From Ectocarpus siliculosus (Eukaryota > Sar > Phaeophyceae > Ectocarpales > Ectocarpaceae), in assembly GCA_000310025.1 (NCBI GenBank), contig FN649745.1, positions 416,138 to 469,678 on the forward strand: 53,541 nucleotides of DNA. Reading direction: 5' to 3'. This document shows positions 9,201 to 42,240 of the stretch, piece by piece. The translations under genes were made by a program, and so were the position numbers. The notes under the pieces were generated by a model, which was not told the DNA's origin, ran no database searches, and saw only the letters and a program-made list of their open reading frames with translations. Each line of letters opens with the position of its first letter. Position 1 is the stretch's first letter.

Positions 9201-12200
9201 CCCCCCGCCAGGCGTTGATGGAAGCTCTAGAGGGCATGGAAGGCATGGAGCTCACGCCGGGGGGAGGGGCGCAGTCCAAGGACGTCCTCAAGGCGTCTTC
9301 GGATGTGCTGCCTAACAGGAGCCCGTTCGAGATGCAGTACGAGCTGTTCAAGCGGGGGATGGAACTCGAAGACGACGATGACTTCGTTGGCGCGGAGAGG
9401 CAGTGGACCGAGATCATCGAGAACTTCAACAGCCCAAATTTCCGGGCGACCAACCCCGGGAACAAGGTGCTGCTGGCCAGGGCGTACAGCAACCGCGGCA
9501 ACACGAGGCTGTCGCTGCAGAAGACGAGGGAGGCCATCCTGGACTACAGTGAGTCCATCGACCTCGTCCCGGAGAAGGGGGAGTTCTGGCTGGCTCGCGG
9601 GGTGGCGTTCGAGGTGAGGATGCGTTTTTTTCCGGAGGAGAGTCCTAGTGGGAGAGAAGAGGATAGGGAGGAACGGGGTCGGCACACACGGCCGGTTTTT
9701 ACTTGTGGTAGCGGGTATTTTGGCTGTGCCGCGCGTGACAGAGATTTGTCTTGGCCAGGGAGAGATGCGTCCCTTTCGTGTCTAAGCACGGATCACGTTC
9801 TCGCGTTTAGGAGAGGTTTGCGTCGCCAGTTACGAAAAGAAGAGCGACATCGTTGACGGGACGATCGATGGAAACGACGTCGGACTTGTGCACTCACCGC
9901 TCTCGGGACCTTGATTCGGCTACGGTAGCAGCCTCCGCCTGGACCCCATACCTCCAGCGTTAAGGACGCGTCTTTCTTCTCTCAGACGCTATCATTTCTC
10001 CTTTCTCCTTGTGTGTTCTTTCCCTTGGGTGCTTTGCCCACGAAACCACAGGACATGGCCGACCGCAAGGTGCTGGCACGGGCAGACCGTAACGTGGAGG
10101 TGGCGCGCACGTTCTACGAGAGCGCTCTTGCTGACTACGACCACGCCGTCGTATTGGACCCACAGGTACGGCCAGCCAGTCAGCCAGCCGTGCGTGTGGA
10201 CATTTACAGTCTGTGGTGGTGTGTTGTTGAGCAACGTGTTTTCGTCGTGTTCTCCTCCCCCTGTCGTGTGCATCCATGGCTCGTTTATTCGTTTATTCAC
10301 GGCACTGGCAATATCTCCGTACGCGTTTTTGTTTGACAACAATCGTTTTAGATCGGACTTGGACAGCCATATCGCCCCCTTCCCCCGCCCCTCTCTCTCT
10401 CGCTCGTCCTCTCTCACCGCGTACGGCAGTACAGTCGGTTGTGCCAGGAAGATCATCATATCCGATACTTGCCTTGATTAGATTGGAGCCCGTGCCTCTC
10501 TCACGCACCGGGGTGTCGAATGACTACCTTGACCGGCTGCACAGGTCCACACCAGAACCCTAGACTCTTGGCTCTGTCCGGTCTTTCGGCCCTTTCATCC
10601 GGCCTCTCGCTCTCCATCATTCCGATTCCTCTTCTTGCGGTGCCGAACGGCTATTGTCACGAAACGCCCCCAATACTGCAGGATCCCCGCGTGTACATCA
10701 GTCGTGGCGACGCGAACACCCTCCTGGGCCAGGGACGCGATGCGCTGGACAACTACATCCGCGCGGTCAACCTAAGCCCCATGACCCCTGAGGTCAGTTC
10801 AGTTCGGGACGCGAGTTTCAGCGTTGTGTTTCTTTCTGGCTTTTGTTCTTGACTTGTCGATCTTATGCGGCGATGATATTGCGGCGTTGGCACTGCGTGC
10901 ACGCTGCGGGCATGCCGGCTTTGAGTGTCGGGAAGCAAGATGGAATGCAAACGATATGACTGTGTAGCACCAGCCTGTTGGCAGCTTGAGCCTGCCGTCG
11001 ATGGAGGCCTGGCGGCAGCTCATGTTCGTCGCACGGGTTGGCGAGTTGTTCGGCCTGTTTTCCTGGAACTGTGGGCCGTGGACACACGCACACCCTCGCG
11101 GGCCCCCGGACAGATCATGGCCTTGAGAAGGATCTCCCACGTTTAGCGGCACCGTCTTTCATTGGTCAGCGGGTTGGGTGGTCGATGAACGTTGGCACAA
11201 GCACACACAGTTAGGGGTGTCAATCGGGCACATTTTGGAGGCAAAAAAACGGCCGGTCTATTCGGCGATTTTGGGGGGGGGCACACGGATTGGGTTCTTT
11301 TTCGGTTCTTTTGAATGCCCGCCTATTATACTGATTAAACAGTACATTACTCAGTTTCTTTGTGCAGTTAGACCTGCGCCCAGGCCAAAGCGTGGCTCTT
11401 CATACGTTACACAGACCTGGACACAAGTCCAATTGAGGTGACTGCGAGCTCGGTTTTCTCTTAAAGTTAAAGGGCGGACGAACAACCCCCAAAAACTAGG
11501 TTTTTCCCGGTTTTTTCAGCTGTTCTACTCACGTCCAAGGCGACCTTTGCTCCTATCGAAAAAGCGAGCTCGCAGTGCTCTACGCTGGGTTTACAGCCTA
11601 ACCCACACAACAAACCGAATACGAATCGCATCAGCCACCCCCGAGATCTAGATGTCCGAAAATGGCCCCTCCAGCGGCTCTGCAGCGCCTGCTGCAGCCC
11701 CCGCACGTGACCCTACCAAAAAAAAAAAACGGAGGTCCGCTTTCGGCAGCAGCAGGCGCGCTGCACGAAATCTGAGGAAAAGTGGAGAGAAGTTTGAAGA
11801 TAGGACGGGGAAGTCTGTAGCCGAGGCGTCAGCAGCAAATAACACGCGGCGCGCTATCGAACGTGGCAGCCTCAACGTCGTGGAGAGAGTGCTGGAGGAA
11901 ACGAAGGAGGAGTTGGTCAAGAGTAAGAAAATTGCGGTAGAGAGCCAGGCTAGCTGCAACATGGCGATGGAGTTTGCGCGCGAGAAAGACGATGAGCTCA
12001 AGCGGGAGCGGGCACGGAGACAGCAGGCGGAGCAAGAGAAACATGAGGCTACGCGAGAGCAGGAGGCGGCGGCCGCGAGTCGGCGGCAGGCGGAAGAGAG
12101 AGTCCGCGACATGTCGAAGGAGCTGGCCGGTCTGAAAGACTCGGTGAAATCGCTCCGCAAGACCAACGCCACCCTCTTGGAGGATGCAGGGATACCAATC

Positions 12201-15200
12201 GTCGCCGACGATCCGCCCCCGGAGGAGGACAGCACCCGCAGCCTCGAGGATGAACTCTTGCTCGAGAAGGTGAAGGCCGAAAGACTGCAGCGGAAGGTCG
12301 ATTACCTCACGCCGATCGTGGCCGGACTCAAGCGACAAGTTTCCAACGAGAAAAAAAAGGTGCGTGCGTGCGTGCGTGCGTGCGTGTGTTTTTTGCAGTT
12401 GTTTTTTTCCCGTAAATTTTTACGAGTAGAAGTATGTTTTTTTATATAGATGTCAACTTTATAGAACGTTTAGTACTACCTGCTGCTGGCTGCTGTGAGT
12501 CTACATGAGGTAGCTCTGGTGTCCCTGCTCATTTGTAGTATAGCTATTATATTTGTATGCTTTATTTTTTGTTACAATGCCGTGATGTAGTTGTGCGCGC
12601 TGTAGCGCACGGATTCAAGCAGAAATTTAGCTGTTGTACACGGCGGAGTATACAAAAATCCGCTTCCGCTGCTGCTGTACTGCCTATTCGATCATGTTGC
12701 AGACGAAGCGAGCCAAGCTTAATCTTGGGAACCTCAAGGCTGACGAACCGGTGGGGGGGGCGGAGCAAGAGGAACCTGAGCAGGAGAGGGTAAAGGGTGG
12801 TGGGGAGTTGCTCTCTGCAGAGGATGAGAAGAAGGTGTTGGAGCGCGTCATCAAGAACCGTCTCAAACCCGGCGGAAAATTTGGTGAGACTGCTGCCAGG
12901 CTATTTCAGTCGTTTGTGCAAGGGGGCGTCTCTCTCAACATGACGCAGCAGCTGCTTCAGTCTACCATGTACCACACCACGGGGGTGCGACTCAAACAAG
13001 ATCTCAACATCACGTGTGCCCGCAACACGGTCAAGGTTCTTGCTCTCGGCATTACGCAGCTAGATGGGAATGAGTTGGTCAAAGCGATTCTCAAGGCGCC
13101 GTTTTTGCTGATTGCCGGTGACGAGTCTCTCCGCAACGGGGACAAGAAGTTCCCCATCTTCGTCGCTTTTTACGACGTGGAGGCGGACGCGCCGTGGTTT
13201 GGATTGGTGCGCGTATGTAGCATGAAAGACAAGACAGCAGAAACACAGGCTCAGCTTTTTTACGAGACGATCGTCGACACGCTCGGGTACCCAAAACACC
13301 AGGTGCTCTACGTGTTGAGTGACAACACCGCGTCTGTTTCCTCTGAGGGGAAGGGTTGTGTGAAGCTGTTGCAGAGAAAGCTACGGGGAGAGGATACCAC
13401 CAAAAAATCCACAAAAAGAGCTACAGGAGGCACCAGCAGCGGCAGCAGCAGCAGTGGTCGTGGTGTTCAGCAACGAAACGCACCGGCGGCGGCGGCCGAA
13501 CGGGCGGGGGCGGGCGGGGGGCGGGCCAAACGCAAACAAACCGCCGCTGCAGAGGGAGCGGACAAAAGGCAACGCAAACGGGGTGCAGGGGGGGGGAAAG
13601 GGAAAGGGAAAGGGAAAGGGAAAACAGAGGCACCGCCGACTCCTCCTGCACCTACCAGGACGAGTGGTCGCAACAGGACGCAGACATGGAAAATCCAGGA
13701 GGCAGATGGGGGGGGCAGCTCGGCGGAAGAGAGCGGGTGTGAGAGCTGAAGCGTTTCACTGGTGTTGATACTTGCGTTCTTCAGAGATGCTCGCGTCTCT
13801 ATTTGCAACTAGATGTCATGTGTTGGATGCGTTTTGTTGTGGAGGTCATGTGGTGGTGGGAGGGTTGTTTTCAGTAGCTTCCTTCGTACGCGTGAGGTCT
13901 TTTCGCGTGTGACCGAAGTTGAAGTTGAACGAGAAGTTTTGTGATTTTTGATGCGTTCGTGCGCGTGAGCACGCACTCAACAAGAGCGTTGAGAAGCATG
14001 GTGTGAGAGATAGCAAACGACGCTCGACTCTGTCGTTATCTACCTGCGGCCTTCTGAGCTGCAGCCTTCGTTTTGTACACATGATGGCGGTGTTGCACAC
14101 GGAGAGGCAGAGCGATAAAATGATGTTTGTGAAAGTAATGTTTCGCTGTTGATTTTTTTCCGACGATTTTTTTCCGACGATTTTTTTCCGACTTGAAAGC
14201 AACGTCACTCAACCGCCGTCCACATTTACTCCGACTCTAATTCTGCTGCGGTCACCCGCGGCCGCCGATTCCCTTCCTTCTCTAACGTAACCAGCAAATC
14301 ATCTGCAGCTTCCGGTTCCAATACTCTTTTTCTGCTCAAGTTTTCGGCCGGTTTTCGTGCGTGGGAGACAGCCTTTGCTTCCCTTGCCTTCTCCAAAACC
14401 TTTTTGCCAGCGGCACGGATTTTTTCGCCCGTCGCATCTGCGCACACGATATCTCTAGACTCGGCTGACTTCCACCCCCCAACACGAACAATATCCATCT
14501 CAGCCATGTCCGTCTTCTGTGCGCATGAGTCGAACTTCGAAAAGAAGGCTTCGATCAACTGCTGGTGAATGGGAACAAAGTAGAATCGGTGACACACCAA
14601 CTTGTACAGGAGGGGAAAATCGAACAGACGCGCCAACGCTGACGTACCCTTTGGTGCACCCTGGTCAACCTCCTTGTCACCCCACCCAGAATTCGCATAC
14701 TGCTCGAGTTCGTTCCTCACAGAACGGTCGCTATCAATGCGTGAAAACAGCCCGAACGTCAACTCATCTTTCCTTCTTGCATCGGTGGTTCCCCCCAAAT
14801 CCTTCACGAGCTGCGTTCGGTATTCCCTCTCCCTTTCCGTGCGCGGCTCTCCCTCGTATAGAGCAGACCAAGCTACATGAAGGAAGGCACGCGCAAACTC
14901 CGGCCCCACCGCCTGCTCTACAGCCCCTTCCCCCATGATTCCTGTCCGAGCGAAAAACGAGGGGCATCCAATCCGCGCCATGCTCAGAGGTAGCTGCTGA
15001 TGCCGCTCCATCCACTTGATCCATCGCTGCTTGAACTCGGCAAAAAAACCCTTGTCCTCACTGAAGTTTGTCATGAATAATTTCGCCTGCAGCACGACAG
15101 CGACAGCGTTTGCGACCAGTTCAAGCGGTAAAAACATTAGTGTCACCAGGCAAAAAGCAGAAGCAGTGGCACCAGTACTAGCGACAAGCACCAGCCGTTA

Positions 15201-17764
15201 CAAGCAGTGAGAGGTAGTGGCGCGACAAGCAGAGGGAGGTAGTAGCAGCAAGAGGGTGCGGAGAAATGTGGAGGGGGTAACGACGAAAGCAAGTTGATGA
15301 GAGAGAAAAAAACGTGAAAATTCGCGATATTGCAAACCACCACGGCCGTTCACACAGCAGCAGCAGCAGCAGCAGCAGCAGCTCCAGGCTGAACCCCTCT
15401 CTATTCCAAACTGCAATACTCAGGCCCGCCACCACTCACCATCGCTTCAGATAGGGTTGTTTGAACGCGTTCCAGGACCGCTGCGAAGTAGGTCTTGGGG
15501 TCCTTGCGGATAGTCTCCAACTTGACCAGCAGCAGGCGAGAGAAATCAGCCACCTCCACCAAACGCATCCCAGGAAACAGCTGCCGACCGACCCCTTCGC
15601 CCTTCAAAAAGAACCCGCCCTTGCCACGAATCCAGTTGTACGCCCAGTCGAACAACAGCTCCCCGAGCCTTGCCGTGAACATAACATGCACACGAACCAG
15701 AGGGTCTCGCAGCATGTACGCCGATTGGAGCCAGTAGTTCCTGAATGTGGTCTTGTTGAGGTTGCGAGCAGCGTACTCGCAAAAAAGCCACTCAACCTGC
15801 TCCCAGCGTTTACACAGGAGCTTGGCCCCGTCCATAACCACCATCCAACGCGTCTCGGCAGGTCTGACGAACTTGATGAGCCATGGCTTCGCGTCCGGGA
15901 ACTGCTGCTGCACTACCCTCTTCCACCGCTGAAAATTGGCGTTCGAGGATTCCGAGCGGCTTGTGTTGTACCAAACCATACCAAGAAGGGAGAAAACATG
16001 GTCGCGCTCCCACTCATGCCAGGAACCCTTACCAAGCGGGCCCATGAAGTACACACTAGTCATGCCCGCAGTGATAGAGATGTGCAGGACGTGTAGAACA
16101 CACCCCAGGCGATGCGCGTGAATGATGGGCGGCTCAACCTCGCTGCCGCCGCCGCCGCCGCCGCTGCTGCTGCTGCTGCCGTTTTTTTCAGCAGCAGTAG
16201 CGGCGGCGGCAGGTGTCGGCGTGGCTTCACCGCCCGGCTGCTGCTCGGGTGTGTTATAAGGCATGTGTTGTAGAGTGGAACCGCGCAGAGGTGTTGTGGT
16301 TGTGCCCACAGCAGCAGTGCATATCAGAGCTCACACACGAGCGGCGCAACGGCGCCCTCGCGCGTACACGTCAGCTGTTTTTGGGGAGCTTTCGGACCGT
16401 TCCGTGCAATTTAATTGGCCAGCTGATTTTCCATCAGCAAGATCCGAGGTCGTTTTTTCAAATTTTTTCCTATAGGAAATTTGGCCGATTGACACCCCTA
16501 ACAGTTTTCTTCTGTTGCTGCTGTTTCTGTCTTTGATCCAAAGGATAGTTTAGCCTCCCCCATGCTGGCCCCTCGCGGGGTCCCAGTTCATGGCAGATAG
16601 AAGTGTTTTGTGTTTTCAACCGCACGAGACTGAAGTCTTTTCATTGGTCAGCCGGTTAGCGCGGTCGATCCTAATAATAAAAACACACACACTGTTGGCG
16701 TTTTCATCTGCTTACGACAGATGCCCTTTCACTTGTCGGCCGGTTGGAGCGGTCGATCTCTTTTAAGACGCACACACACGGCACGACCATTTTTGAATTT
16801 TGGTGTGTGTTTTTATTTCTTTTCAGTTTCGAGCGAAGGTGGCGCTGGCGGAGCTTCAGGTAGGGCACAAGCAGAAGGGCGCGCACCTCATCGGGCAGCT
16901 GTTGCGTCGTTACCCGAGCTACCCGGAAATGCTGCTGGCGGCCGCTTCGGTGAGGTCTCGCTCTTCATATGTGTTGCAATCGTTGTCGCTACTCTTCCTG
17001 CTGCTTTTATTGTGTTGTTGTCGGGGTTGCTCTTGTTTGTCTACTTCACCCCAAATCCTGGGCGAACACTAATATACGAATCCGGCATAGCGGCACCTCG
17101 GGTAGCTGAGACACCGCGAGCCTAATGTGTCATCGGCGTAGCAAGGGAGGGATTGGGAGTTCGATTACCATGGTTTAGTTGTGCCGTCCGCTTTTTGGTC
17201 GAGCTTCATGTGTCCGGTTTTATTAACGTTCCTGTGGTGCCTTTAACCCTGTCCGATTTTGTTGTTGAAATTTGGAACAATTTGGGCGTGTTGCCTGGCT
17301 TGAAACAACGTCCACCTCCGTTGAGATTCTTGAGTGAACGAAGTACTTCTGTGTATCTCTGTGAGATATGTCCTCGGAAAGCGATTCGCTTTGTACTTGC
17401 GGGTCTTAGCGAAAGAGACTTCGGGTCGAAAATAAGGATATTAAAGGAACGTGGCGCATTTTTGCCGTCGCGGTTGTTCTTGCAACATTCACGGAGCCCC
17501 CCCTCCCCTCTTCTGGTATGATGACGAAACCAGGTGGCCTGGAGCGACGGCGAGTTGGTAGAGAGCCAGGAGATGTTCGCCGAAGCGATTCGCTTGGACG
17601 GGCGCCTCATGGACGAGAACTACATCTGGCTCATCCTCCGCTGGCCGGAGCAGCCGCTCAGCATGGTGAAAGCGCTCCGCTCGGCCTCCAGCGCCCCGAA
17701 GGGGAGCGGCCTCGAGGCCCTGGGGCTAAAAACGCTCCTGTCTATGCCCCGCGAGGTCATTTGA
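6294..17764 (+). CDS. TPR protein, chloroplast (thylakoid) lumen common-family-like
   Basis: Helical-repeat scaffold protein, probably plastid-targeted. Well-supported exons: 8882-8992, 9212-9613, 10052-10165, 10682-10792, 16827-16949 and 17534-17764 (TGA). All are phase 0 with GT/AG borders. A tentative first exon, 6294-6563, encodes a basic start, a hydrophobic stretch and a CAEGF site like a heterokont plastid signal peptide; it also joins in phase 0. The next exon adds a second hydrophobic stretch ending in ASPAVAE, which resembles a thylakoid-lumen cleavage site. TPR motifs are visible: RAYSNRGNTRLSL with AILDYSESIDLVP, then SALADYDHAVVLDP, and VYISRGDANTLLGQGRDALD with a following helix. 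Total about 453 residues. The resemblance to plant lumen common-family TPR proteins is from memory. Intron 6 is about 6 kb because a hAT-like transposon sits in it. The first exon is the main doubt; there could be an unseen exon between 6564 and 8881. Confidence 0.7.
7812..8078 (-). other. Orphan coding-like fragment in intron 1 of the TPR gene
   Basis: An 88-codon open frame antisense to the TPR gene. Its second half (NPLQRFSKLDYFTAERMHQD and onward, to a stop) has normal protein-like composition, unlike most shadow frames nearby. No family was recognised. It could be a decayed transposon fragment or chance. Confidence 0.2.
11207..11211. repeat. Left target-site duplication ACAGT
   Basis: ACAGT lies directly before the left terminal inverted repeat and is repeated exactly after the right end at 16501-16505. 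The duplication cannot be extended to 8 bp: CACACAGT on the left against ACAGTTTT on the right. Confidence 0.75.
11212..11227 (+). repeat. Left terminal inverted repeat
   Basis: TAGGGGTGTCAATCGG, exactly matching the reverse complement of 16485-16500. Similarity continues loosely for a few bases inward (GGGCACATTTTGG against GGCCAAATTTCC). Confidence 0.85.
11652..13749 (+). CDS. Transposase subunit A: coiled coil plus N-terminal half of DDE core
   Basis: Two exons, 11652-12359 and 12703-13749, phase 0, give 584 residues. Donor is AAG/GTGCGT and acceptor TTGCAG. Exon 1 starts with a Ser/Ala-rich leader and a basic KKKKRR stretch (possible nuclear signal). A long charged coiled coil follows (residues ~75-235, heptad-like Glu/Lys/Arg/Ala), suited to subunit pairing. 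Exon 2 holds the RNase H-like part: IAGDESL with the first acidic residue near D376, and VLSDNTAS with the second near D443, followed by EGKGCVKLLQRKL. The family's next blocks (C-x2-H, TRW, catalytic Glu, C-terminal dimerisation part) are absent. Instead the protein ends in a low-complexity Ser/Gly and Lys/Arg tail with repeated GKGK, then a stop. The missing blocks are encoded on the other strand at 16264-14226. No BED zinc finger was seen. Confidence 0.7.
12360..12390 (+). repeat. TGCG/GTGC tetranucleotide run at donor site
   Basis: Five to six GTGC units begin exactly at the GT donor of the transposase A intron. Repeat-length change here would move the donor within identical sequence and would probably be tolerated. 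Confidence 0.7.
14151..14192. repeat. Three perfect 14-bp tandem copies
   Basis: GATTTTTTTCCGAC is repeated three times without mismatch between the 3' ends of the two convergent transposase genes. Being T-rich on one strand and A-rich on the other, it may serve in 3' end formation; that role is a guess. Confidence 0.75.
14226..16264 (-). CDS. Transposase subunit B: C-x2-H, TRW and C-terminal half
   Basis: Two exons, 16264-15440 and 15086-14226, phase 0, give 561 residues. Donor is ATG/GTGAGT; acceptor GTGCTGCAG. A flexible Gly/Ser/Ala leader (residues ~10-45) precedes HRLGCVLHVLHI, which has the Cys-x2-His spacing typical of hAT-like cores (C55, H58). PAETRWMVVMDGAK (TRW 138-140) matches the conserved RW motif of the same region. 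Exon 2 has QQLIEAFFSKFD followed by a Lys/Arg-rich end and stop. The third catalytic acidic residue (Glu) should lie in exon 2 but cannot be fixed by eye. This is what should follow subunit A in a normal transposase, yet it has its own start, opposite strand and own stop. The acceptor is the least certain part, because the frame is also open upstream of it. Confidence 0.65.
16485..16500 (-). repeat. Right terminal inverted repeat
   Basis: Reverse complement of TAGGGGTGTCAATCGG, directly followed by the ACAGT target-site copy at 16501-16505. Just inside it is a short palindrome around CCTATAGG. Confidence 0.85.
16501..16505. repeat. Right target-site duplication ACAGT
   Basis: Exact copy of 11207-11211, directly outside the right terminal inverted repeat. 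Confidence 0.75.
16636..16785 (+). repeat. Diverged tandem repeat in TPR-gene intron
   Basis: Two diverged copies of a unit built around CATTGGTCAGCCGGTT, then CGGTCGAT and an ACACACAC stretch, begin near 16636 and 16726. A third copy lies at about 11155-11210 directly left of the transposon. The transposon therefore landed beside or within an older intronic repeat. Confidence 0.6.
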
Positions 17765-39150: not shown

Positions 39151-42100
39151 CTGTCAACTTTCGACATGCTTCACGACAATGCCCGGAATCGAGGTGCGGA
39201 TATATTTACGATTCTTCATCGCAGTTAATTAATATTAATATGATGTGCCCAGATGTGTCTGGTGTTTGTAGACCGCTGCTACTGCTGGTGCTATGATGTT
39301 CGTATGTAGGGTTTGCTGCGTGAATCACCAGCAAGCGTGTAAAACGCAACCGACGCGCCTGAATCAGTTGAGCTGCCAGGGGAAAAGGTTGACGACTGAA
39401 GATTGTTCTACCAAAAAGTGTTCTAACGTTTTCTTGTTCATCCACCCCTGAACATGCTTGCAGCGTACAGCGAAGCTGTTCGCTTGCTAGCTGCCAAATC
39501 TGCCCACAGCGACAATACCGAAGCCGTCGAACGATGGCTTGACATCGGCACCGGGAGCGGACTTCTAGCAAGCCTTGTAGCCGCAGCAACGACTTCTACC
39601 AGGACGGAGGTCTACGCGTGCGAAGGCGTGAACGAGGTGGCCGACGTCGCTGCCCAGACCTTTCAGAAGAACGGAGAACGTGTTCGTCTGTTTCTCGGCC
39701 GCTCGACGGAAATGGAGATCGGCAGGGACCTACCTTCTCGAGTACCGCGTGTTATCTCGGAGCTACTCGGAACAGGTCGGTCGATGAATTGGTTCCCCTC
39801 TATTCCACTTTTTGTAGACAGCACCCTGCTCGCAATGCTTTGGCAGTTCGGAGCTGCTTGCCAGTCCATTCTAAGCGAGCACGAGTAGGTCTAACGGGAA
39901 AAATTATTTACTGCTTACAGGTTCGTGGCTGACTGCAAGGCAGAAGAATCAGGTAGGCACTCTTTAACACAGCAACACGTTTTCGCCCTTTAAGTGCAAA
40001 AAAAGAAAAAAAGCAGCCACTCTCGGTCACCAGCAGTCATCGGTCGAAGTCACCTCCCGTCGATAACCTTTCCAGCTCGCTGGTTTGAGCAGTGAAACCC
40101 CCTAGAAGTATCCATTGCCAACACGCTACCGTCTTCACTTCGAAACCGTCGCTCAAACGAAACGTCAGGCCTGTTAGAAGAAGGGATCCTCCCGACCTTG
40201 CGGGACGCCAAGGCCCGTCTTCTCTCGCCCGGGTTTGTCTCTATCCCATCGAATGCGGAGGTGTGGGCTTTCTGCTGCCAGAGCTCGGAGTTGCACAGCA
40301 TGAGCCGCCTTTTGCCTTCGGCTGGGACCAGCAGCGGCGAGAGCTTCCGAGCGCCGTCCTCCGAAGAGTGGGAACGATGTCCTGGGGCGGCCGGTCCGGT
40401 ATCTATGCACGAGAATGGGATGGTGCAGTTCCACCCGCTCTCCCCTTCTGTGAGGATTTTCGAGTTCGATCTCATGTCATGTGATAACCCTCTGCCGGGA
40501 CCGGAGGGCCGCAGGTGCGAAGTACAATTCCCGATCGATACCATCTCCGGTGGTGACGGCGAGGTCCACGCAATCGTGTGCTGGTGGCAGTGCTTCATGG
40601 ATGAAGACCGGACGATTGTAATGAGCACGTCCCCATTGCCGCCGCCGAAGGCATCGTCGGAATTTCGAACAGAACCTCCAGCTTGTACGCCTCCACATCG
40701 AGATCACTGGCGACAGTCGGTGTACCTCTTGAGCAGGCCGGTTCAGGTGGAAGCGGGCGACACCGTGTGCGCCATCGCTTGCCACGACGACAGCACGGTC
40801 TGGTTTGAAGCTGTTGCGGCAGCTACTAGTCGCAGATCAGCGGGCCCAGGAAGGACAGTACACGATGGAGTAATAGCAGGAGCAGGCGTACCAACATTCG
40901 GAACGTCAGCGGCTTCCCGGGGAATCGACAACACGTTTGCACCACCGGGCGGGAAAGCAGGAAGAGATGAGCATGATTGGGAGAGAGAGACCATTTCCCG
41001 AGAGACGAGTATTCGCTCCTTCCCGCCGGTGTGTGTATGCGGCTTACATCGGACTTGTCCACCGTCCCGCATCCAGATGCTGAACGACCAACACCGAACA
41101 GATGCGTTCCGATCGGCCATCAGAGCGATTCTTCTGGGCACTCGCAAAGCCCAAACACAGGACGAGAATCGCACCGCTGCTAGTGCTGTCGATTCTGACG
41201 CTGAGATCGCCAGGGTTGCCTCCGGAGAGAAAAGAAGACGCACCGCGTCGGCGTGCGTCGCTTGTATCTCGGACGGCTTCCTGCTGCCGCTCCTTGCGGC
41301 CCAGGAGGGTGCATTTGAAGTTCTCGAGATTCAACCCTCCACCGCCTACAGAGCGATGTGTCGGGACGTGTACCTCGCGAACGGAATAGATATCGGCGAG
41401 GGTGACCACGGCAACGATCAAAGGAGGGTCATTCGACAGTTCCCCGGCGGCGTGTTGAACGTGTACGAGCTCCTGACGCCGACGTCCGCGGACAACGACG
41501 CGTTTGGTTTGGCAGGGAAAAAACTCGATGCTGTGGTCGGGGAGCCCTTTTTCGCGGACCTATCGACGGCCGCCTGGTCGTTGGAGTCACTGTTGTTGTT
41601 TTGGTGCGCGAGGACGGCCCTAGAGGCCGGCGGGTGCTTCTCGCCGAGGACGAAGGTGATGCCAGCTAGAGCGCGCCTGGTGGCTTGCCCCTTCGCATGC
41701 GAGCTTCTCTTTAACAGCCGGTGTCGTGTGGGGACCGTGGAAGGCGTCGACATGTCTGCGGCGAACGACGGCCTCGGCCTCGAGCGGCGTGTAGATGAAG
41801 CTAATCACGGAGGAAGCGGGGAAGGAGACGAAAGGCGGCGTCCTGGAGAAGTCGAGTCGTTGCGATTGTCGGAGTTTGGGCACCAGCTGCTTGGCCCGCC
41901 GACGGCAGTCCTAGACATGGATCTGACCCGGCCACTGTGCGATTTGCGCGGCGGCCGCACTGAAATTCGTTGCTTCGGACATCATCCCCGTACCACTGCA
42001 GTGGCACCAAACGATGGGGGGCGGAGGGTTAGCCATGTGACATGTCATGGCATTGGGCTTTGGGTCGATTTTTTTCTGGATGAACAGATGTCGCAAGTGC

Positions 42101-42240
42101 TCTCTACCGGACCGGAAGTGCTCTACTGGGCGCAGGGGGTGTTTTTCTTTGAGAAGGGATGGCTGGTACCGCCGAGCGGCAGGAGCTTTCACCTGGAAAC
42201 CGCCTTGGTAGATGGAGCCCTCCGTGTGCATGTCTCCTAG
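39151..42240 (+). CDS. PRMT7: PRMT7-like protein arginine N-methyltransferase (5' incomplete)
   Basis: S-adenosylmethionine-dependent arginine methyltransferase with two tandem methyltransferase-like halves, as in PRMT7. Exons 39151-39193, 39464-39775 and 40169-42240 agree in phase (1 and 1) and give 808 residues plus a missing start. The first exon reads TFDMLHDNARNR, matching the family's DML-D--RN motif. The second has the cofactor loop LDIGTGSGLLA and the acidic YACEG. The double-Glu loop is split by intron 2: ISELLGT joins GLLEEGILP, so both catalytic Glu are present. Then HAIVCWWQCFMDEDRTIVMS and HWRQSVYLLSRP match the first half's barrel. The second half shows GFLLPLLAAQEGAFEVLEIQ, VGEPFFADL and CHGIGLWVDFFLD. 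The last exon is 2.07 kb without an intron, with a low-complexity insertion (~40860-40990). It is convergent with the POT1-like gene, stops 823 bp apart. The first coding exon was not found. Confidence 0.85.

Follow-up and report, generated by a model that had tools for sequence, protein, structure and literature searches.

DDE transposases are normally single chains. Enzymes assembled from two proteins do exist: RAG1/RAG2 and ProtoRAG are convergent gene pairs for a two-protein recombinase, with 5-bp duplications in ProtoRAG, and RAG1 alone carries the whole catalytic triad, with RAG2 as an accessory subunit. The transposase of Tn7 consists of two different proteins, TnsA and TnsB, each with its own complete active site and encoded by co-directional genes, and the mudrA-encoded transposase of maize MuDR is whole. 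In the two-protein transposase systems known to us, each active site is kept whole. Here we describe a 5,289-bp element in the brown alga Ectocarpus siliculosus (assembly GCA_000310025.1), in which two convergent genes, A and B, lie within one pair of terminal inverted repeats (TIRs). It lies in a 53,541-nucleotide stretch of contig FN649745.1 (positions 416,138 to 469,678), which was analyzed as a whole and is referred to below as the window. It is moderately probable, in our view, that this is a DNA transposon of the cut-and-paste kind and that A and B each encode one of the two proteins that make up its DDE-type transposase.

Target duplications of hAT elements are usually 8 bp (PMC3942097, PMC12730594), and hAT5, hAT6, and hAT7 groups with duplications of 5, 6, and 7 bp are described (PMC12730594). 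Transposases of the hAT, Kolobok, P, MuDR, and Dada groups contain the C/D-x2-H motif (PMC3706591). Kyakuja-Dileera-Zisupton (KDZ) elements encode a KDZ transposase domain and form 7-8 bp duplications (PMC12730594). Harbinger elements of Ectocarpus contain two tail-to-tail genes (PMC12477816), and in the Nuwa lineage of Harbinger the second gene encodes a Myb/SANT DNA-binding protein (PMC12730594). In maize MuDR, promoters in the long inverted ends drive a pair of convergent genes, one of which (mudrA) encodes the transposase MURA, and the element forms 9-11 bp duplications (PMC3310237).

Two convergent genes within transposon ends

The element occupies window positions 11212-16500 and has 16-bp inverted ends with 0 mismatches between them. 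Spliced models of A and B were inferred from reading frames and splice signals. Gene A (11652-13749, plus strand) has one GT-AG intron and encodes 584 amino acids, and gene B (16264-14226, minus strand) has one intron, with donor GTGAGT and acceptor CTGCAG, and encodes 561 amino acids. Both are stop-free, and their stops lie ~480 bp apart. The initial annotation, made by a model from the DNA letters, had described two open, spliced genes inside one perfect TIR pair, with the plus-strand gene ending after a basic tail, and each of these points is confirmed. The motifs that it named are also all present: GDES and LSDNT in A, and C-x2-H, TRW, and the C-terminal block in B, where the order is C-x2-H, ETRW, and QQLIEAFFS. 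The features, with window positions, are the following.

11207-11211, strand not applicable: left target duplication ACAGT, 5 bp, read from the flank; like duplications occur at loci C201 and C98
11212-11227, plus strand: left TIR TAGGGGTGTCAATCGG, 16 bp, perfect, from end comparison
11652-12359, plus strand: gene A exon 1, with a basic start resembling a nuclear localization signal, then a long E/K/R-rich probable coiled coil (by eye)
12703-13749, plus strand: gene A exon 2, encoding what is putatively the first half of the catalytic domain and, after it, a basic low-complexity tail (net +16) up to the stop
13120-13122, plus strand: Asp codon of GDES, from the model of gene A
13321-13323, plus strand: Asp codon of LSDNT, from the model of gene A
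14226-15086, minus strand: gene B exon 2, C-terminal half with the FPLL..QQLIEAFFS block
14552-14550, minus strand: candidate catalytic Glu codon (Glu454) in IEAFFS, from the model of gene B
15440-16264, minus strand: gene B exon 1, with a low-complexity acidic leader (net -4) ahead of C-x2-H and ETRW
Ending at 15845, minus strand: TRW, from the model of gene B
16102-16091, minus strand: C-x2-H, from the model of gene B
16485-16500, minus strand: right TIR TAGGGGTGTCAATCGG, 16 bp, perfect, from end comparison
16501-16505, strand not applicable: right target duplication ACAGT, 5 bp, read from the flank

In the proposed mechanism, protein A would provide the N-terminal part, in which a basic region and a probable coiled coil lie ahead of RNase H-like strands 1-4 with the first two catalytic Asp residues (D1 and D2). 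Protein B would provide strand 5 with C-x2-H, an insertion region with TRW, and a C-terminal helix with the third acidic residue. Binding of A to B would restore one active site, and the resulting A-B enzyme would cut at the inverted ends, insert into ACWGT, and leave a 5-bp duplication. Docking may be aided by the tail of A, which is basic, and the leader of B, which is acidic, both placed exactly at the interruption of the chain. A more specific form of this proposal holds that a single RNase H-like domain is cut between strands 4 and 5, that the split is ancient and kept across at least three families, that the enzyme is active only when A meets B, that the charged tails dock the two parts, and that the target is the palindrome ACWGT; taken together, we see this form as evenly poised between right and wrong.

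The split layout in diverged relatives

Protein queries against the genome (189 Mb, 492 contigs) found relatives, and loci were fetched for matches with E values up to 0.02. Parts of both genes are present at six of these loci, namely the window locus (C20), C201, C40, C98, C23, and C18, and in all six A and B are convergent on opposite strands, a recurrence at five loci beyond the window that is not due to chance. The alignments to the window proteins give 52% identity for A and 41-42% for B in both C98 and C23, two relics disrupted by stops and frame changes. C18 is weaker, and its A relic lacks the D1-D2 part. Partial loci contain A only (C30, C15) or B only (C11). The searches yielded no colinear, single-strand A and B locus among the loci fetched. 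Outside this genome, no relatives were found in a viral contig collection with A exon 1 and A exon 2 as queries, or in a genome contig collection with A exon 1, but these scans each start from two short peptide patterns in viral, bacterial, and archaeal collections and say little.

The chain is interrupted at the same place in C98 and C23 as in the window element. In both relics, A stops in an R/G-rich, basic, low-complexity tail soon after the second Asp block (SDNTA..GGCV), and B begins with a short leader followed by the ALRIGCLLHVLH / C-x2-H block. The break point is thus shared by all three families compared (window, C98, and C23). At the corresponding place in L010, an ordinary single-chain hAT of this genome, the distance from D2 to the Cys is just 24 residues. 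At the broken ends, A and B carry net charges of opposite sign in every family compared (+16, +13, and +11 for the A tails; -4, -9, and -6 for the B leaders), and the leader of the partial B in C11 has a net charge of -5. These opposite charges suggest docking, an interpretation made post hoc from few families. A stretch related to A exon 1 is present in C18 (E 2e-5) and, by eye, also in C98 and C23. To the initial annotation the split looked established, and the presence of the same layout in diverged families and at six of six loci bears this out.

Compared with the relics, window A gives proportions of 0.69-0.82 for silent differences (pS) and 0.18-0.32 for nonsynonymous differences (pN; C98, C23, and C30), and window B gives pS of 0.71-0.81 and pN of 0.36-0.39 (C98, C23, and C11). 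These are rough measures, as tblastn alignments favor conserved frames, and the ranges exclude the comparison with C40, which has too few differences to tell. Silent sites have nearly saturated and yet the proteins are conserved, so that both A and B were, as judged from these alignments, under selection for a long time in the past. The layout also appears to be old, because silent sites are near saturation between families that share it; in the simplest account the split itself is old, if the three families inherited it from one ancestor.

Evidence for movement comes mainly from C98-type ends. The C98 element has inverted ends TAGCCCTGCGCCTGACCC flanked by ACAGT duplications. Allowing up to two mismatches, these ends match the genome 42 times, compared with three matches for a reversed control pattern, and because of those three a few of the 42 are probably due to chance. 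Among the 40 matches fetched, the flank outside the end is exactly ACWGT in 28 and ACNGT in 30, against a background frequency for ACWGT of 0.0014 per base in the window, and beyond this motif there is no clear base preference. The 5-bp duplication is exact in eight of the 15 end pairs listed, matches at 4/5 positions in four, and matches at fewer in three; one of the last three, at C84, has its ends 155 bp apart and probably encloses no element. One exact pair has ACCGT on both sides, and the motif is therefore a true duplication and not part of the end. The ends of 13 of the 15 pairs span 1.3-2.5 kb, and one pair encloses a full-length element. Five of the 1.3-2.5 kb elements were fetched whole, and their terminal parts are 70-84% identical to C98. 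In the short element at C44, the beginning of A faces the first 44 residues of B, which are encoded on the opposite strand; because it keeps both gene starts, it is a shortened form of the split element. The duplication is 5 bp long in the window, C201, C98, and the shortened relatives, and C98-type ends thus have the sequence signature of mobile ends that insert into ACWGT. An ACNGT end scan detected no TIRs for the C23, C18, C30, C15, and C11 relics. The shortened C98-type family (1.3-2.5 kb, e.g., L058-L062) has targets that are mostly ACWGT, and two of its members, at C4 and C155, share 94% identity over 1.8 kb. Together, these comparisons directly support two conserved, formerly selected convergent genes in transposon ends, a common break point, and a target preference.

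Near-identical copies are few. The 16-bp end, with at most one mismatch, has five matches in the genome: the window and C201 account for two each, and the fifth stands alone at C33, where 7.5 kb of fetched sequence has only short simple repeats in common with the element and its flank. C201 is 98.8% and 99.0% identical to the window element in two aligned parts and has the same layout, counted via just 45 A residues beside an assembly gap that covers most of A. In both the window element and C201 the ends match at 16/16 positions and the flanks at 5/5. C40 is 99.4% identical over 4,031 bp, with A exon 2 open and without A exon 1 and both ends.

Several repeats lie within and around the element. 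Between the stops of the two genes, a 14-bp unit, GATTTTTTTCCGAC, occurs three times (14151-14192), and the C201 copy seems, by eye, to carry more units. A 19-bp TTTCATTGGTCAGC-like motif is found on either side of the element (11157-11175, 16639-16657, and 16727-16745) and resembles, by eye, part of a tRNA-like short interspersed repeat. The right flank (16502-16625) is part of a high-copy dispersed repeat with at least 44 matches, including the window's own two (697 candidates, 40 scored), the majority of which start at or near CAGTTTTCTTCTG. When the two flanks of the window element, and likewise those of C201, were joined and searched for in the genome, no clean empty site emerged; one of eight fetched copies of the right-flank repeat (L065) has GACACAGTTTTC across the junction but differs upstream. 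Elsewhere in the window, 714 codons on the plus strand (40096-42240) are open from stop to stop.

Identity of the two proteins and rival explanations

The initial annotation placed the transposase beside hAT enzymes; as an identity this is not supported, and what speaks for it is the order and spacing of the blocks. Read over A and then B, the D, D, C-x2-H, TRW, and E blocks follow the order of hAT transposases such as L010, and two of three spacings are similar (D1-D2, 67 residues versus 66 in L010; W-E, 314 versus 316). What does not fit are the Pfam searches, our own C-terminal profile, the alignments, the 8-bp duplication usual in hAT elements, and their single chain. B has no Pfam match to the hAT C-terminal dimerization domain (PF05699). 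A hAT C-terminal profile that we built from five local hATs has its best score elsewhere in window B, a score reached by 45 of 1000 shuffles, and it does not match B of C98 or C23. L010 (C354) and L011 (C9), both ordinary single-chain hATs with long open frames and an ER-FS motif, are nearly identical by eye. Membership in hAT is not supported, as Pfam, PDB sequences, hhalign, the C-terminal profile, and the profile alignment gave nothing significant and the duplication is 5 bp. Pfam searches covered all exons up to E 1, with a looser limit of E 10 for A exon 2 and for B, at which HMMER filters drop most matches above 0.1; they gave no match in A or B to proteins of KDZ, Harbinger, Myb/SANT, or MuDR type. 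KDZ was rejected because no KDZ domain was matched and the duplication is 5 bp, not 7-8 bp, and Harbinger because neither a Harbinger DDE nor a Myb/SANT match was found and the duplication is not 3 bp. From the motifs, we call the element hAT-like in block order and do not class it as a hAT member, because C/D-x2-H alone does not make a hAT. By the conservation, order, and spacing of these motifs, A and B would together form a DDE enzyme, and we infer that one catalytic domain supplied in trans best explains them. The RNase H fold, the identity of the third catalytic residue, the complex of A with B, and the part played by the tails in docking are putative elements of this interpretation.

A single-sequence AlphaFold model of the A core, which is poor (pLDDT 43), has the order b1 b2 b3 a1 b4 a2, in which b1 ends with D1 and D2 comes right after b4. 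The Pfam family nearest to A exon 1 is KfrA_N, below threshold (E 0.0029, 18.8 bits, cut-off 26.1), a match that we read as coiled-coil similarity.

A number of results weigh against a transposase in two parts. No Pfam family scores above its cut-off for A or B, PDB sequence searches gave no significant match of either protein to any DDE family, and hhalign of A and B against L010 found nothing significant. Profile alignment with L010 gave z values of 0.6, 1.7, and 0.4 (12, 3, and 17 of 60 shuffles were as good), and the C-W spacing is 85 residues compared with 63 in L010. Foldseek with the A model ranks an unrelated oxidase first (E 0.047) and Hermes tenth (E 0.12), behind unrelated proteins. 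The best VIA-align match of this model (Z 4.9, root-mean-square deviation 4.8, 94 residues aligned) is to an unrelated protein and within background, and Hermes is not among the VIA-align matches shown. For part of B exon 1, AlphaFold gave a poor model that is largely helical (pLDDT 38). Glu454 of B, a candidate for the third acidic residue, is Glu in the window and C23 and Gly in the C98 relic, and B contains many further invariant acidic residues. Differences between the window and C40 are few and show no enrichment at silent sites (codon positions 1, 1, 1 in A and 1, 5, 2 in B), and thus give no sign of recent selection. Finally, in both C40 and C201 the frame of B shifts by one base close to where exon 2 begins, and both genes are open end to end in the window copy only. 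The initial annotation had named the lack of a second fully open copy as a point that would refute it. We regard the damaged near-identical copies as outweighed, because diverged families carry the same split.

Three other explanations of the locus were weighed. One of the two proteins could be the transposase in full and the other an accessory factor for DNA binding or regulation, as in Harbinger or MuDR, with a fortuitous likeness to a cut chain. Convergent pairs of this kind are known from both groups, sequence comparisons do not join A and B into one chain, the sub-threshold KfrA_N match of A exon 1 is to a DNA-binding family, and the invariant acidic residues of B are numerous. However, A stops after GDES and LSDNT, at a spacing that differs by one residue from that of the local hAT, and B supplies the remaining blocks in order; Pfam matches to Harbinger or MuDR type proteins are lacking, and a 5-bp ACWGT duplication is neither the 3 bp of Harbinger nor the 9-11 bp of Mutator. 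We consider this explanation unlikely, if still a serious one. It is improbable, in our view, that the split is degenerate, with A and B as remains of an enzyme and the elements moved by an undivided transposase encoded elsewhere. The stops and frame changes in C98 and C23 and the preponderance of 1.3-2.5 kb C98-type elements, with just one of full length among the 15 pairs, would fit such decay, but both genes were under past selection, and genome searches, which can miss weak matches, detected no undivided relative.

An inverted or rearranged copy of an ordinary single-chain transposon is barely credible. The window-type family has only three copies found, two of them damaged, which would suit a local accident, but C98, C23, and C18 have the same convergent layout, C98 and C23 have the same break point, and silent sites are near saturation. 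The layout in diverged families therefore contradicts a simple inversion of the window copy, as the initial annotation had argued from the completeness of both proteins, and the other copies fetched from this genome did not include an uninterrupted transposase on one strand.

Comparison with described systems

In the literature searched, with most subscription papers and Repbase Reports outside its scope, we met no split DDE transposase encoded by convergent genes among the papers listed. If the two-part transposase is real, a catalytic domain divided over opposite strands would act as a built-in safety switch: cutting would require the expression of both genes, and their convergent transcription could restrict the joint expression of A and B. 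Such a transposase, split by nature and with a defined 5-bp target, would be a starting point for controllable gene insertion, and annotation by single-chain homology would miss such elements.

The element resembles hAT transposons (Ac, Hermes, and hAT5 of Repbase) in the order of the D, D, C-x2-H, TRW, and E blocks, the D1-D2 and W-E spacings, and the 5-bp duplication of hAT5. We also take its short inverted ends, which start with TAG, to be hAT-like. In contrast to hAT elements, it has two convergent genes, no detectable C-terminal domain or BED finger, and a strictly palindromic ACWGT target, and the sequence similarity is not significant. Harbinger elements likewise have two convergent genes in one TIR pair, but there a Myb/SANT protein stands beside the transposase and duplications are 3 bp. 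MuDR also has two convergent genes, but only one of them makes the transposase, and its duplications are 9-11 bp and its ends long. The RAG and ProtoRAG systems share with the element a convergent gene pair and, in ProtoRAG, a 5-bp duplication, whereas the triad of RAG1 is whole. Tn7 TnsA/TnsB shares the division of a transposase into two proteins, but the active sites of Tn7 are complete and its genes co-directional, whereas in the Ectocarpus element a single active site would be divided between proteins encoded on opposite strands.
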